Origin: Candidatus Colinaster equi
GTDB lineage: Bacteria; Bacillota; Clostridia; Lachnospirales; Lachnospiraceae
Direction: 5' to 3'
Assembly (NCBI GenBank): GCA_018064425.1
Contig: JAGHVF010000026.1
Span: forward strand, 1-55,038
Length of the DNA stretch: 55,038 nt
Below, in pieces: positions 19,923-55,038 of the stretch (its first letter is position 1; each line of letters begins with the position of its first letter). The translations under genes were made by a program, and so were the position numbers. The notes beneath the pieces are model-generated. The model was given only the letters and a program-made list of their open reading frames with translations, made no database searches and had not been told where the DNA came from.

Positions 19923-19943
19923 AACTGTTTGAGGAGATGGACA

Positions 19944-22313
19944 ATGTCAAATTATAAGTACGATGCTTTTATAAGTTATAGGCATCTTGAACCGGACAGC
20001 TTTGTAGCAGAAAATGTACATAAACTGTTAGAGAGTTATACTATTCCGAAGAATCTTAGGAAGACTTTGGGAAAAAAGAAGATAGGGAGAGTGTTTCGTG
20101 ACAGAGAAGAACTTCCTATTACAGATAGCTTAAATGACCAAATAGTAGATGCTCTGAATCAATCGGAATTTTTGATTGTAATCTGTTCACCGCGTTTGGA
20201 AGAATCCAAGTGGTGTAAGAGGGAAATAGAGACATTTGTTGCAAAGAACGGCAAGGGTAAGGTGTTGCTTGTATTGGCAGACGGCGAACCCGATACCGCA
20301 TTTCCGAAGATTATATATGATGGCAGCAGTGAACCTTTGGCGGCTGAGGCAAGAGGCAACAGCAACCGCGAGAGATTGCGTAAACTAAAGGTAGAAAAGC
20401 TTCGAATACTCGCTCAAATGCTGAATGTGGGATTTGATGATCTCAAACAACGTCAAAAGGAACGTCGCATCAAAACAATATTGACCGCAGTATCGTCTGC
20501 TGCGGTTATTGCTATTGCTTTTGCTGTACTGGCGGTAACATCTGCTGTAAAAATCAGCAAGCAGGCGGAGAACCTGGCGTATGATAAAGCTTTGCAGATG
20601 GCGGATGAATCACAGCGACTTTTGCAGGACGATAAGCGACTTGAAGCGCTTGCAGTAGCATATGATGCCTTGACTGTCGCAGATGATACGAAGATGCCAT
20701 ATACACCGGAAGCAAGATATGCTCTGGTAGATGCACTGAGAATATATGATTCTGCCGGATATTCAAAATCGGTACTTGAAATCGATACAAGTGATACTGT
20801 ATGTGCGATGGAATTTAACAGCAATCCGTTTGAGGTGATATATGCTGATGCGTCAGGTAATGTGGCAGTATGGCTTTACAAGGAATACAGAAAAGTATTC
20901 GAGACCTTTGACGGAATAAGAAACTCACAAAGTGAACATATTGTGGGTTTTATTGATGCTGACCGTTTTTACTATATCAATAATAATGGCGAAGTTGTTC
21001 TTGCATCTATTAAAAATCAGTCTGAAGATATGAAAGTTTTGAATGATGCACATTTTAACAGTGTATACATTAATGCGGCTTGCGATAAGCTGGTAGCCGA
21101 AGCGGACAAAACTTTGTATGTGTATGATTTGAATGATTATAGTGTGATATACAAGGATAGTATTGAAGACACAGCCGATGATGCGACGAAGTATGCGGAT
21201 TGTATCGGATGGGATGATGCAAACGGATATATACTCTATTCTGTATGTAAGGAAGATGCATCGGATATCGAGACTTTGAAAGTGGCTGATATTGCATCGG
21301 GTGATTGCATATTCGAGGCTGATTTTGCAAATGCCAAGATGTGTGATTGCACTTGCCATGGCGGAGAATTTTATGTGCTCAGTACGTGCGCTGAGGGAGA
21401 TTTGAATAAGTCGTATGTGTGTGCCCTTAATGTTAAGGAAAAGGAAGCAAAGTGGAATTCTTTGTTTAACGGGGCGGCCGGTCAGTTATGGTACACTATG
21501 GGTGATACATTGGCTGTAACGGCAGGCAATGATTTGTATCTGTATGATTGCGGCAACGGCACTTTGTTAGGTAACTATTCGTTTAATGATGGTGTCGGAT
21601 GTCTGACGGAGTATGATAATGTGTTGTACGTGCGCAATCTTAACGGTGAGTGCTCTGCATTGGATGTAAGGACCGGGGCTTATACATATCTTGGAAAAAT
21701 GATTGAGTGTACGAGACTGAATGCCCTTAAAGCGTTGGAAATTACGCCATATAACTATGCGTATATGGGCATTGCCGCCAACGGTAATGATAATCATTTG
21801 ATATTCTATAATTATATGGATAACGCTTATGCGACTGTATATGACGGCGAATTGCTTACACCTGCACAGGAAACATATTTGGGCAATGATGCATATAATA
21901 TGGCCAAGGATTGGGGCGTTGATGTTCGCAATACAATATACTCGATAGTTACAGACGGAGAAGATGTTGCGGTTATATCATATAAAAACGGTATAACAAC
22001 TGTTTATGATATGCATTCATCTAAAGAAATATATTCACGCAATATCAATAGTGTGATAGACAGATATCTGGGAACGGACATATACGGCAACAAATATTTC
22101 GGCAACGATAATAGGACAGTAATGGTATCGCCTGACAAAGAAATCATAGCCGCTATTGATGATATGCTCGGATTAACGTCAGATGCTACCGGCATCGTCA
22201 TGGATTCATACGATGAGCAGCGTCACCCTGTACAATTGCGATATGACATATATGACAAAGATGAATTGCTTGAAGATGCCGTTTCAAGGATGTCTCATTA
22301 CCACTACAGATGA
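19944..22313 (+). CDS. TIR-domain protein with membrane helix and propeller-like C-terminus
   Basis: 789 residues; the ATG at 19944 has GAGGAGA at 19931-19937, so the TTG at 19929 is not used. The TIR domain (1-150) starts YKYDAFISYRH and keeps the Ser-rich ICSPRLEESKWCKREIETF loop, in which Glu94 is the residue expected for NAD hydrolysis. A single membrane helix (about 178-202, ILTAVSSAAVIAIAFAVLAV) follows, then about 580 residues of YD/VWL-type beta repeats (VIYADASGNVAVWLYKEYRK, TLYVYDLNDYSVIYK, DVAVISYKNGITTVYD) that look like one or two beta-propellers outside. In clostridia this type is common; roles in signalling or in defence are both possible. Confidence 0.85.
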   Translation: MSNYKYDAFISYRHLEPDSFVAENVHKLLESYTIPKNLRKTLGKKKIGRVFRDREELPITDSLNDQIVDALNQSEFLIVICSPRLEESKWCKREIETFVAKNGKGKVLLVLADGEPDTAFPKIIYDGSSEPLAAEARGNSNRERLRKLKVEKLRILAQMLNVGFDDLKQRQKERRIKTILTAVSSAAVIAIAFAVLAVTSAVKISKQAENLAYDKALQMADESQRLLQDDKRLEALAVAYDALTVADDTKMPYTPEARYALVDALRIYDSAGYSKSVLEIDTSDTVCAMEFNSNPFEVIYADASGNVAVWLYKEYRKVFETFDGIRNSQSEHIVGFIDADRFYYINNNGEVVLASIKNQSEDMKVLNDAHFNSVYINAACDKLVAEADKTLYVYDLNDYSVIYKDSIEDTADDATKYADCIGWDDANGYILYSVCKEDASDIETLKVADIASGDCIFEADFANAKMCDCTCHGGEFYVLSTCAEGDLNKSYVCALNVKEKEAKWNSLFNGAAGQLWYTMGDTLAVTAGNDLYLYDCGNGTLLGNYSFNDGVGCLTEYDNVLYVRNLNGECSALDVRTGAYTYLGKMIECTRLNALKALEITPYNYAYMGIAANGNDNHLIFYNYMDNAYATVYDGELLTPAQETYLGNDAYNMAKDWGVDVRNTIYSIVTDGEDVAVISYKNGITTVYDMHSSKEIYSRNINSVIDRYLGTDIYGNKYFGNDNRTVMVSPDKEIIAAIDDMLGLTSDATGIVMDSYDEQRHPVQLRYDIYDKDELLEDAVSRMSHYHYR

Positions 22314-22327
22314 TTCTTTTTCGAAAC

Positions 22328-22923
22328 CTCTTGACACTTAGAAGCGCTTTCCTGCATTCACCGCTTTATTTTTTTGTGGGCGGGGCATATAAGTGTATGT
22401 TTTCTGAAACGGCCATTGTGCTAGAAAAGCTTTACGCATTCGGATTATCAAAAACACGACGTCGCTCAAACTCACGTGACAAAATAGGCACTTTGCTTGA
22501 CGGCGAAAAAAGAATATGTTCAAAACGTTTGCTACCATGCCTTAAAGGTTTAGCAGGCGGATTATATAAAAACGCCGACGGTTGCGAAACTGTTTGACGC
22601 TAAGACAAAATCTAGAACTTCGTTTACGAAGTTCTTATTTTGTCTAAGCTAGTTTGAGCACCGTCGCGTTTTTAATAATCCGCCTGCGTAAAGCTTTTTA
22701 GGATGGTAGCATGTTTTGAACATATCTTTTTTCAGCCGCCAAGCTAAAGCGCCAAATTTTGTCTACGTTTCAAACAAGTTCGCTGACGTCTGTGTTTTTG
22801 TATAATCCGCCTGCTAAACCTTTAAGCACAATGGCAAAGTTTCAGAAAACATACACTTATATGCCCCGCCCATTTAGCAAATGGCATGTGGCGAATGCAG
22901 GAAAGAGCCCCCAAGTGTTAGAG
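22328..22923. repeat. Giant non-coding palindrome (about 596 bp), possible MITE-like element
   Basis: The whole span between the TIR stop and the feoB stop folds on itself about 22625. Perfect arms include 22347-22359 with 22893-22905 (13 bp), 22377-22410 with 22839-22872 (34 bp), 22412-22422 with 22825-22835 (11 bp), 22514-22526 with 22713-22725 (13 bp) and the centre AGAACTTCG-TTTA-CGAAGTTCT (22614-22635). Each arm holds two diverged copies of a unit of about 120 bp that share GGATTAT and GACAAAAT. Open frames in it are short and mirror each other across the axis, so it is not coding. It has no transposase and no match I know. Confidence 0.85.
22614..22645. terminator. Central hairpin of the palindrome, possible two-way terminator
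   Basis: AGAACTTCG-TTTA-CGAAGTTCT is a perfect 9-bp stem, flanked by AGACAAAAT (22603-22611) and ATTTTGTCT (22637-22645). A- and T-rich flanks on both sides would let it terminate transcription of the two convergent genes; the T-tracts are short, so strength is uncertain. Confidence 0.4.
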
Positions 22924-25302
22924 TCATACGAAAAAGAATCCGATGGCAGTGCCAATGAGGTGAACCATGAAGGCGGCAAGCCAGGCAATAACACATTGCA
23001 TAATGCATACCAGAATTGCACTTTTGGTGCCGAGTTCACGCTTTATGGCGGCAATTGCGGCTACGCAAGGAGTGTAAAGCAGTGAGAATACCAGGAATAC
23101 CGTAGCAGTTAGCGGAGTAAATAAGCCGGACAAGCTGCTGACATTGCCACCCAGTAATACTGTTAATGTACTGACAACACTTTCTTTGGCGACAAAGCCT
23201 GTGATAAGTGAGGTTGCAACTTTCCAATCACCAAATCCAAGCGGAGCAAATAACGGTGTAATCAGTGTTCCGATCATTGAAAGGAGACTGTTTTGGGAAT
23301 CCGTTACTACGTTGAGTCTGCTGTCAAAGGATTGCAGAAACCAGATGATTATGGAAGCCAAGAAGATGATTGTAAAGGCTTTGTTGATGAAGTCTTTGGC
23401 TTTGTCGGCAATTAATTGCAATACACTTTTGGGACTTGGCATACGATAGTTGGGCAACTCCATAACGAAGGGAACGGGTTCGCCTTTGAAACGTCTGAAG
23501 CGCTTGAGTATAAGTGCGTATGCTATGGCAATTACTATTCCGGTAGAATAGAGTGCAACTATGATTAGAGCCATTTTTCCGGGGAAAAAGGCTGCTGTGA
23601 ACAATGCATATATCGGTAACTTGGCTGAGCAGCTCATAAAGGGAGTTAAAAATATCGTCATTTTACGATCTCTGTCGGACGGCAAAGTACGTGTAGACAT
23701 TATAGCCGGTACGGAGCAACCGAATCCGATGAGCATAGGTACAAAGCTTCTGCCGGACAGACCGATTTTACGTAGCAGTTTGTCCATAACAAAGGCAATA
23801 CGTGCCATATATCCGCTGTCTTCGAGTATAGATAAGAAGAAAAACAGCACGATAATAACAGGCAGGAAATTAAGAACAGAACCGACGCCTGCAAATATTC
23901 CGTCAATAATAAGCGAGTGCACTACCGGATTGATGCCGTATTCCGTTAATGCATAATCTACAAATGTGGTCAGCGAATCAATGCCTTTACTTAACAGGCC
24001 CGAAAGAAATGAACCTATTGGACCGAATGTCAGATAGAATATTAACGCCATAATGATTAGGAAGGCAGGAATAGCGGTAAATCTGCCGGTTAATACCTTG
24101 TCGATGCGTTTACTTCTTAGATGCTCTTTGCTTTCGTGCGGTTTGACAACGGTTGCATCGCACAATTTTTCTATAAATCTGAAACGCATATCCGCAAGAG
24201 CGGCCTCACGGTCCATTCCGCTTTCTTCTTCCATTTGAGAAATAATGTGTTCCAATGTATCCTTTTCGTTGTCATCAAGCCCCAATCGTTTAAGGATTGA
24301 TTCGTCACATTCTACCAGTTTGGTGGCAGCGAATCTTACGGGGATGCCGCTTGCCTTGGCATGATCCTCTATAAGATGAATAATGGCATGTATGCATCTG
24401 TGAACAGCACCGTTACCAATGCCGTCTTCGTCGCAAAAATCAACACGTCCGGGACGTTCTCTGTGTTTGGCTACATGCAAGGCATGGTCAATCAATTCGT
24501 TAATACCCTCATTTTTAGCTGCAGATATCGGAACTACCGGAATACCTAACAAGGTTTCCAATTGGTTAATCATAATGGTACCACCGTTTTCACGGACCTC
24601 ATCCATCATATTGAGAGCGAGTACCATAGGAATATTAAGTTCAATCAGCTGAAGTGTAAGATACAGATTACGCTCGATATTGGTAGCGTCAATAATGTTA
24701 ATCAATCCTCGTGGGCGGTCTTCCAACAAGAATTCACGTGTAACTATTTCTTCGGATGTGTAAGGTGACAAAGAGTATATGCCGGGAAGATCGGTTACAT
24801 TGGTATTGGCTATACCTCTGATTGCACCGTCTTTGCGGTCGACGGTAACACCCGGGAAGTTGCCGACATGCTGGTTGGAACCGGTAAGCTGGTTGAAGAG
24901 AGTAGTCTTGCCACAGTTCTGATTACCGGCCAGACCGAAAGTGATTATCTCGTTGTCACGTAATGCTGCACCTTCTCTGCGCACATGGTATTTTTTGCTT
25001 AGGTCCAATTCACCCATGCGGGGGTGCTCAACCGATTTAAGACGTGACTTCGGAACTGCAGTATCGTGTGTATCATGAATGCCGTGTATGTCAATGTATG
25101 CGGCATCCGATTTACGTAGCGTAAGTTCGTAGCCTCTGACGCGAAGCTCCAACGGGTCGCCCAAAGGAGCGGTCTTACTTAATGTTATCTCGGTGCCGGG
25201 AGTTAATCCCATATCAAGAATATGCTTACGCAGTGCACGGTCCGAACAATTTACTTTTTCTATAATGGCATCTTTGCCGATTGATAATTCATCCAGTCTC
25301 AT
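22924..25302 (-). CDS. feoB: Fused FeoA-FeoB ferrous iron transporter
   Basis: 792 residues. The first about 75 residues are FeoA (SIGKDAIIEKVNCSDRALRK, LTPGTEITLSKTAPLGDP), then FeoB begins. Its GTPase shows G1 GNQNCGKTT (126-134), G2 NFPGVTVDRK, G3 DLPGIYSLSP and G4-like LNMMDE. The membrane part has the gate motifs LPVIIVLFFFLSILEDSGYM and SFVPMLIGFGCSVPAIMSTR, the latter with the conserved Cys. FeoB takes up Fe2+ under low oxygen. The FeoA-FeoB fusion is normal in several clostridia. The stop lies 1 bp from the edge of the palindrome. The start at 25302 has AGGTAGGG ahead. Confidence 0.96.
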   Translation of the reverse strand: MRLDELSIGKDAIIEKVNCSDRALRKHILDMGLTPGTEITLSKTAPLGDPLELRVRGYELTLRKSDAAYIDIHGIHDTHDTAVPKSRLKSVEHPRMGELDLSKKYHVRREGAALRDNEIITFGLAGNQNCGKTTLFNQLTGSNQHVGNFPGVTVDRKDGAIRGIANTNVTDLPGIYSLSPYTSEEIVTREFLLEDRPRGLINIIDATNIERNLYLTLQLIELNIPMVLALNMMDEVRENGGTIMINQLETLLGIPVVPISAAKNEGINELIDHALHVAKHRERPGRVDFCDEDGIGNGAVHRCIHAIIHLIEDHAKASGIPVRFAATKLVECDESILKRLGLDDNEKDTLEHIISQMEEESGMDREAALADMRFRFIEKLCDATVVKPHESKEHLRSKRIDKVLTGRFTAIPAFLIIMALIFYLTFGPIGSFLSGLLSKGIDSLTTFVDYALTEYGINPVVHSLIIDGIFAGVGSVLNFLPVIIVLFFFLSILEDSGYMARIAFVMDKLLRKIGLSGRSFVPMLIGFGCSVPAIMSTRTLPSDRDRKMTIFLTPFMSCSAKLPIYALFTAAFFPGKMALIIVALYSTGIVIAIAYALILKRFRRFKGEPVPFVMELPNYRMPSPKSVLQLIADKAKDFINKAFTIIFLASIIIWFLQSFDSRLNVVTDSQNSLLSMIGTLITPLFAPLGFGDWKVATSLITGFVAKESVVSTLTVLLGGNVSSLSGLFTPLTATVFLVFSLLYTPCVAAIAAIKRELGTKSAILVCIMQCVIAWLAAFMVHLIGTAIGFFFV

Positions 25303-54384: not shown

Positions 54385-54470
54385 GCAGGGGTATCGAAGT
54401 GGTCATAACGAGGCGGTCTTGAAAACCGTTTGTCCGAGAGGGCACGTGGGTTCGAATCCCACCCCCTGCG
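54385..54470 (+). tRNA. tRNA-Ser(UGA) in the rRNA leader
   Basis: The acceptor stem GCAGGGG pairs with CCCCTGC, anticodon loop CTTGAAA gives UGA (reads UCA), the long variable arm GTCC-GAGA-GGGC marks a class II tRNA and the T arm is GTGGG-TTCGAAT-CCCAC. CCA is not encoded. It lies between the promoter and 16S, so it is released from the rRNA precursor. Confidence 0.97.

Positions 54471-54650: not shown

Positions 54651-55038
<388 letters not shown>

Follow-up and report, generated by a model that had tools for sequence, protein, structure and literature searches.

Is a palindrome that fills the whole gap between two convergent genes a terminator, a structured RNA or a mobile repeat? The question is raised by the window analysed here, a stretch of 55,038 nucleotides from Candidatus Colinaster equi, in which a gene for a TIR-domain protein and feoB run towards each other. 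A sequence-only reading had described the gap as one inverted repeat and had argued for a mobile or recombining element rather than a simple terminator. The region was indeed found to form a single rod over 22312–22940, with a main stem of 264 pairs. Folding of both strands, which that reading had proposed as a check, predicted a long hairpin on each of them: minimum free energies were –342.8 (plus strand) and –358.9 kcal/mol (minus strand), far below the means of 20 dinucleotide shuffles per strand (–150.5 ± 6.7 and –155.3 ± 6.3 kcal/mol). All of the perfect arms described earlier (34, 13, 13 and 11 bp, with a 9-bp hairpin at the centre) were located in the main stem. The 13-bp Watson-Crick runs lie at 22347–22359/22893–22905 and 22553–22565/22675–22687 and the 11-bp run at 22412–22422/22825–22835; further runs of 12 bp pair 22312–22323 with 22929–22940 and 22515–22526 with 22713–22724. 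The boundary had been misplaced. Rather than 1 bp beyond feoB, as had been stated, the repeat starts within the stop codon of the TIR gene (TGA, 22311–22313) and extends 17 bases into feoB (stop codon 22924–22926), so that its outermost 12-bp stem is built partly of feoB codons. Among the ORFs of the window, two (95 and 108 aa) overlap the element. Coordinates are collected in Table 1.

An intrinsic terminator consists of a short GC-rich hairpin followed by a T run. The rod measures 629 bp with no T run after it, and its sole fit to the terminator pattern is the 9-bp apical hairpin, which by pattern only is terminator-like in both directions (2 found; shuffle mean 1.0). Elsewhere in the window, Rfam identified only rRNA and tRNA: the start of a 16S rRNA gene at 54652–55038 (model positions 1–368), within which the window terminates, and a tRNA ahead of it at 54385–54470. 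The large product of 19929–22313, encoded next to feoB, has an N-terminal TIR domain, also matches a ThsB-type TIR profile and gives a sub-threshold match to PQQ_2; it is possibly a defence or signalling protein.

Table 1. Features of the window element and places of its family, F1, in the host genome. Positions without a contig name refer to the window.
Feature	Position	Strand	Remarks
Whole hairpin element, F1 copy 1	22312..22940	.	629 bp; from fold and matches to other copies
TIR-domain protein gene	19929..22313	+	Converges on hairpin; Pfam PF13676, PF08937
feoB (FeoA-FeoB fusion)	22924..25302	-	Reads into hairpin from opposite side; Pfam PF02421, PF04023
Outermost arm, left	22312..22362	+	First 12 bp perfectly paired; unlike outer arms of other copies
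Outermost arm, right	22890..22940	-	Final 17 bases within feoB
34-bp perfect stem, left side	22377..22410	+	Inverted-repeat search and pairing
34-bp perfect stem, right side	22839..22872	-	Inverted-repeat search and pairing
Outer module, Y strand	22411..22492	+	Motifs CTAGAAAAGCTTTACGCA, GCTCAAACT, GACAAAAT
Outer module, X strand	22750..22838	-	Motifs CTTAAAGGTTTAGCA, GCGAACTTGTTTGA, GACAAAAT on minus strand
Stem joining outer and inner modules, left	22492..22526	+	Inverted repeat, pairing
Stem joining outer and inner modules, right	22713..22747	-	Inverted repeat, pairing
Inner module, X strand	22528..22620	+	Orientation opposite to outer module
Inner module, Y strand	22632..22712	-	Duplex drawing
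Tract B, likely source of off-register copying	22541..22566	+	26/26 with 22801-22826
Tract A', likely overwritten by B	22801..22826	-	Poorer match to B in other copies
Core motif in common with F2	22589..22597	+	ACTGTTTGA
Partner-strand core motif GCTAGTT	22648..22654	+	F2 counterpart GCGAGTT
Apical hairpin, 9 bp with 4-nt loop	22614..22635	.	AGAACTTCG-TTTA-CGAAGTTCT
Complete F1 copies	window; C44:7876-8400		C44 copy between rplL terminator and rpoB promoter
F1 at contig end	C44 start		3' of rpoC
F1 at contig end	C45 start		3' of PHP-like phosphatase gene
F1 at contig end	C48 end		3' of tsf
F1 at contig end	C27 start		3' of prepilin-like gene
F1 at contig end	C78 start		Before GntR-like gene

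The earlier claim of repeated units of about 120 bp holds as well. An asymmetric module of about 120 bp occurs twice in the rod. The outer copy holds the inner one, flipped, in its apical loop, which gives the order Y X y' x' along the element. The two strands of each module carry different motifs at the internal loops: the X strand reads CTTAAAGGTTNAGCA, then GCGAA.CTGTTTGA or GCGAACTTGTTTGA, then GACAAAAT, and the Y strand CTARAAAAGCTTTACGCA, then GCTCAAACT, then GACAAAAT, with variants in other copies. Since the inner module is flipped within the outer loop, the closest relatives noticed in the sequence-only reading are out of register; both were confirmed, 22541–22566 being the exact complement of 22801–22826 (26 of 26 bases) and 22425–22437 that of 22686–22698. 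The architecture is common to all four F1 copies whose sequence extends far enough (window, C44, C27 and C48), and the broken ones, C27 with Y then X and C48 with X then Y, are consistent with the module order as far as they can be read. The nested build may have arisen by insertion into a loop, or by duplication of the arms and inversion of the centre.

A repeat occurring only once would not be expected to be mobile, as the earlier reading had itself pointed out. In the host genome, a draft of 2.33 Mb in 79 contigs (G000), F1 was found at six places by matches to the element and at a seventh via its outer end. The right end of the element recurs at three of the contig ends, so that the seven places represent at least five copies. 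The two complete copies share 80% identity and the same modules; their outer arms differ, and each pair of arms is matched to itself. The five contig-end copies have GCACTTAAAGAATCA[AG]GGGCGACACC in common, whole or in part. Eight further outer-end matches in the genome (E 0.2–3) were dropped as chance. Neighbouring genes were named by inspecting their proteins, with only the TIR protein and FeoB scanned against Pfam. All five known right ends of F1 face a gene reading into the element (feoB, rplL, tsf, the PHP-like phosphatase gene and rpoC), and by eye four of these five genes have a terminator-like hairpin between them and F1. Inverted repeats of such size are otherwise rare: in 419,069 bases scanned (the window plus 20 stretches totalling 364,031 bases; self-match score of at least 60 within 1,500 bases) the only other one longer than 100 bp was another F1 copy, such a scan being blind to copies cut at contig ends.

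Outside its own genome F1 was not recovered. DNA searches gave no convincing relative in 19 genus-mates and none in phages and plasmids; the 396 other genomes of the family yielded only short matches in seven (21–37 bases, E 0.004–0.009), judged to be chance, and neither IMG/VR (22-mer and 25-letter pattern) nor GTDB contigs (25-letter pattern) contained it. Within these searches, relatives in other genomes, whose absence the earlier reading would have counted against mobility, are therefore lacking as far as close sequence similarity is concerned; families of similar architecture are common in Lachnospiraceae. The multi-copy hits that a BLASTN search had been proposed to reveal are present in the own genome; a clean empty site was not obtained: of the sister genomes parsed at rplL-rpoB, 14 of 15 have no long hairpin (L041 was unparsed), and these sites are too diverged to give a base-exact empty site for F1. 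feoB was dropped as an anchor, sister proteins being at most 62% identical. No target site duplication (TSD) was seen at the two complete copies, the other copies being cut so that their ends cannot be paired, and the Y1 transposases of the genome lie at C28 and C9, neither of which is an F1 place. The multiplicity thus speaks for the mobility proposed earlier, and that this exact family moves is something we infer.

The fifteenth rplL-rpoB gap, in the genus-mate G018, holds a 194-bp hairpin without BLAST relation to F1. It belongs to a second family, F2, which was detected in four of the eight genomes searched (G018, G004, G015 and G019). The F2 core pattern occurs in 62 GTDB contig stretches, mostly labelled Lachnospiraceae or Pseudobutyrivibrio and many with ruminant titles. 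Two are labelled Saccharibacteria (TM7; L143 3840–3963 and L141 364–399), one core lying in a 175-bp hairpin and the other in none; horizontal transfer or a binning error may account for them. By self-BLAST, 55 of 64 F2 cores lie within a hairpin of 50 to 766 bp, the upper figure (L130) being an overestimate as its fold has long unpaired stretches. The nine cores without a hairpin are in part at contig ends. F2 occurs in either orientation relative to its neighbours, in 27 tandem, 10 convergent and 3 divergent gaps (40 of 54 with both neighbours called). An F2 covariance model, R1, matches at least 38 of 397 family genomes and at least 34 of 334 genera, scoring being limited to 8 candidates in each genome. 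Twenty R1 loci were followed up: 17 were drawn and are mostly long near-perfect hairpins (L186 and L189 are not clean ones), two were skipped, and one had no inverted repeat by the measure used. Nesting is also seen in F2: in L146, L169, L170 and L177 the outer arms carry a flipped core and enclose an inner one. In a large F2 element at L132 1897–2290 the left arm seems, by eye, to carry a direct repeat of about 90 bp, perhaps reflecting arm growth by tandem duplication.

F1 and F2 have the motif ACTGTYTGA ... GCKAGTT in common at the apical internal loop; by eye they also agree farther out in a CTTAA that faces CTAAA, with the strands in the same order. The former motif was picked after F1 had been seen. 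In 422,483 bases searched it matched only F1 copies, with about 0.2 chance matches expected, and it is present in 27 of the 60 loci L182–L241. Judged from these sequence motifs, which are post hoc, common descent of the two families is likely but not proven. R1 gave no match to the window element at E up to 10 with filters off, only chance-level matches to other F1 copies (E 5.2, 6.6 and 9.3) and none in the host genome at E 0.001 among the 8 of 273 candidates that were scored. Since R1 fails to find F1, only the architecture and the post hoc motifs carry the behaviour of F2, and of the third family described below, over to F1.

Direct signs of transposition came from this third family, F3, comprising 16 loci (L202–L217) in two 6.9-Mb genomes of one genus (G379 and G065); 15 were used after one with unclear boundaries had been dropped. 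Apart from L216 the F3 hairpins are 257–295 bp long, with long and nearly perfect stems. Perfect 8-bp TSDs flank 7 of the 15 copies, compared to 1.0% of 210 swapped flanks, and at four more copies 7 of 8 flanking bases are alike, the control covering perfect repeats only. Hairpins of such design therefore do transpose. At L246 1627–1674 of G065 we noticed a palindrome of 48 bp that consists of nothing but F3 ends and whose flanks agree at 7 of 8 bases; it looks like an F3 copy that has lost its centre. TSDs were found in none of 43 F2 elements and none of 23 elements of other families. Reading the ORFs of six G065 loci by eye revealed no autonomous partner or transposase of F3, nor did any of the three families yield a transposase (for F1, the Y1 genes of its own genome were considered).

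We also asked whether the hairpins use the loops of host terminators as targets. At the 3' end of tsf, G018 (L264) has a plain terminator with an 18-pair stem, and in G004 (L260) the same two terminator arms enclose an F2 hairpin of 195 bp, the sequence to either side being collinear; this could be a loss in G018 rather than a gain in G004. G004 is the only one of 16 parsed sister tsf loci with a long hairpin (two were split and unparsed, L250 was partly masked). At rpoC none of 17 sister loci has one, a partial 18th (L288) being left out. F1 occupies the ends of rplL, tsf and rpoC in its genome and F2 those of rplL and tsf, so that two gene ends are common to two families. A T run on either side of the hairpin was counted in 5 of 42 F2, 3 of 15 F3 and 7 of 23 other elements, with controls per side of 2.5, 0.83 and 2.0. 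Since T runs beside hairpin ends are not clearly commoner than expected, terminator loops were rejected as a general target, leaving the tsf case on its own.

The arms of these hairpins appear to change together. In the window copy tract A' matches tract B exactly; A' of other copies agrees with B of the window at 21 of 26 (C48) or 22 of 26 bases (C45 and C44 start), and in C44i A' has 18 matches in 28 columns with its own B. Within the tract A' of the window differs from C48 at 5 and from C45 at 4 of 26 positions, and just beyond it is identical at 52 of 54 and 40 of 40. Because the exact 26-bp match is confined to the window and its flanks are near-identical to C48 and C45, the tract looks as if it had been rewritten from B; the reverse history, with the identity lost in the other copies, is less simple. 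Of 195 stem pairs compared between the complete F1 copies, 27 are changed on both arms (20 of these remain Watson-Crick pairs), a count reached in none of 10,000 shuffles; 6.5 were expected, a somewhat too low figure since changes cluster in the outer arms.

The pattern is sharper in F3. We compared the three closest copy pairs with no member in common (91–97% identical). Their 352 stem pairs show 20 changes on both arms, 18 of which leave a Watson-Crick pair, and 5 on one arm only. With 22 left and 23 right stem positions changed, 1.4 coincidences were expected and at most 7 occurred in 10,000 shuffles. In L213 one strand of an asymmetric loop, which reads CAGTTCCGGTTTCGGG or nearly so in five sisters, is replaced by the exact partner of the opposite arm. 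Copies from G237, at 71–81% identity, show more one-arm than both-arm changes. According to the parts of two reports cited here, template switching during replication makes and mends stems (PMC8794818), homogenises the arms of inverted repeats and inverts their spacers (PMC8604942). The paired stem changes of F3 point to such copying, and together these similar hairpins suggest that the two arms rewrite each other during evolution. With both-arm changes between similar copies, F3 offers a good test case for template switching. Copying of arms from host flanks was rejected as a general origin: the longest matches average 9.9 bases in 42 elements, compared to 9.5 (largest 12) in 84 swapped-flank draws. 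Matches above this maximum were seen at L155 (18 bases), L142 (17) and L145 (13), those of L155 and L145 looking like a second F2 copy nearby. The rplL copy of G018 has 14 of its bases present again just upstream.

How should the element be classified? F1 looks like a mobile hairpin of the MITE type with unusual length and nested build. It is MITE-like, yet we do not file it as a MITE because a target duplication was sought and not found. We consider it probable that F1 is a dispersed mobile hairpin without its own transposase, whose arms are kept paired by template switching; occurrence at seven genomic places and paired change of the arms support the mobile or recombining repeat of the sequence-only reading over a simple terminator. 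F1 would be moved by a transposase supplied in trans. During replication the polymerase would switch template inside the extruded hairpin and copy one arm onto the other, so that pairing could persist even as the sequence of the arms drifts rapidly; in the window copy an arm that is not the partner would have served as the template for rewriting a 26-bp tract. Asymmetric internal loops may persist because they are needed for recognition, growth would come either from one hairpin inserting into another's loop or from duplicated arms and an inverted centre, and gene ends may be favoured because insertion there does least harm. A wider reading, possible rather than probable, is that the giant mobile hairpins of Lachnospiraceae, with F1, F2 and F3 among them, make up one broad superfamily built on a shared asymmetric core, whose members insert into the loops of host terminators and into their own apices, grow like nested dolls and keep their arms identical by template switching. 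If this were true, double substitutions in the stems would mainly reflect one-step copying between arms and not selection on RNA.

The same data must be weighed against a structured RNA, that is a long double-stranded 3'-UTR element acting in stability, as an RNase III substrate or in regulation, with its pairs kept by compensatory selection. Conserved asymmetric internal loops and the placement mostly 3' of genes would fit, as would both-side changes in 24 of the 35 core pairs of the F2 consensus (40 of 50 cuttable hairpin-bearing cores aligned, ten nested or near-duplicate ones left out). In F2 stems G-U is also favoured over A-C mismatches by 64:29 on one strand (67 elements), so that some selection at the RNA level or a strand-biased mutation is possible. 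We nevertheless regard this explanation as unlikely. The ratio of 20 to 5 in F3 means many both-arm changes for so few intermediates, and near-perfect stems of about 50–75 pairs, estimated by eye, would all need selection at scattered sites. F1 shows no clear strand preference (A-C/G-U 3/0 in the window copy and 2/2 in the other), F2 lies in either orientation to its neighbours, and Rfam returned nothing above its curated scores for the window element or the elements of 15 loci, the two matches in L107 (E 0.18 and 0.58) falling below threshold.

A bidirectional terminator or insulator, grown on the spot between convergent genes by template switching and immobile, would account for a convergent gap filled from stop codon to stop codon, for the terminator-like apical hairpin and for 37 of 40 F2 gaps being convergent or tandem. 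The six other genomic places, including the non-convergent rplL-rpoB gap, refute it as a complete account, and the ends of such hairpins lack a clear enrichment of T runs; we hold it to be quite improbable, with a terminator effect as a possible by-product. That the palindrome is an artefact of assembly or amplification, a false inverted duplication, is scarcely credible. The genome is a draft and several of its contigs end inside copies, but this is where a true repeat would break them; moreover the differences between the arms are numerous and follow a pattern, and a second complete copy lies on another contig.

Our literature searches returned nothing on long repeated hairpins in Lachnospiraceae. 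Group IIC introns also sit after terminators. No such intron was detected by Rfam in the window, nor in L002 at E up to 1. Similar to the MITEs and small mobile hairpins covered in the consulted part of PMC2229807 (Correia/NEMIS, RUP, CIR, RPE and RU-3), F1 is dispersed, intergenic, bounded by inverted terminal sequences and able to fold into a stem-loop. Those elements measure 103–155 bp, whereas F1 reaches about 530–630 bp and, unlike what is described there, combines two opposed modules in one rod and has different, yet in each case paired, outer arms in its two complete copies. REPINs have REP ends with a tetranucleotide tag and are moved by RAYT transposases. They are mobile hairpins too, in which an excerpt of PMC3116915 reports compensatory changes on the two hairpin sides to be common. 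Their modules flank a spacer, whereas those of F1 are nested and no link to a RAYT was found; REPs, at 20–40 bp in the cited portion of PMC3733652, are far shorter. Bacterial stem-loop repeat families are likewise repeated and foldable, with 67 of 92 models spanning 31–200 bp, and nesting and arm overwriting are not among the features described in the section of PMC2267715 considered here. IS1272 uses inverted repeats as targets, which invites comparison with the F2 copy inside the tsf terminator; as far as the extract of PMC5678879 goes, it has its own transposase and replaces the inverted repeat without a TSD. By contrast, the terminator arms remain at the F2 site in tsf, and F3 makes 8-bp TSDs. 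If the hairpins do land in terminator loops and in each other, this would be a distinct target preference and a route from a small element to a 600-bp palindrome. There is a further parallel with template-switch mutations, where paired changes, arm homogenisation and spacer inversion occur as they do here; in the cited parts of PMC8794818 and PMC8604942 the setting is RNA genes and genes of yeast rather than a family of mobile hairpins. Covariation of two arms is the usual sign of a functional RNA, and in such hairpins it is strong and seems to come from DNA copying between the arms, visible already between F3 copies that are 91–97% identical. The choice between compensatory selection and template switching thereby becomes directly testable in bacteria.
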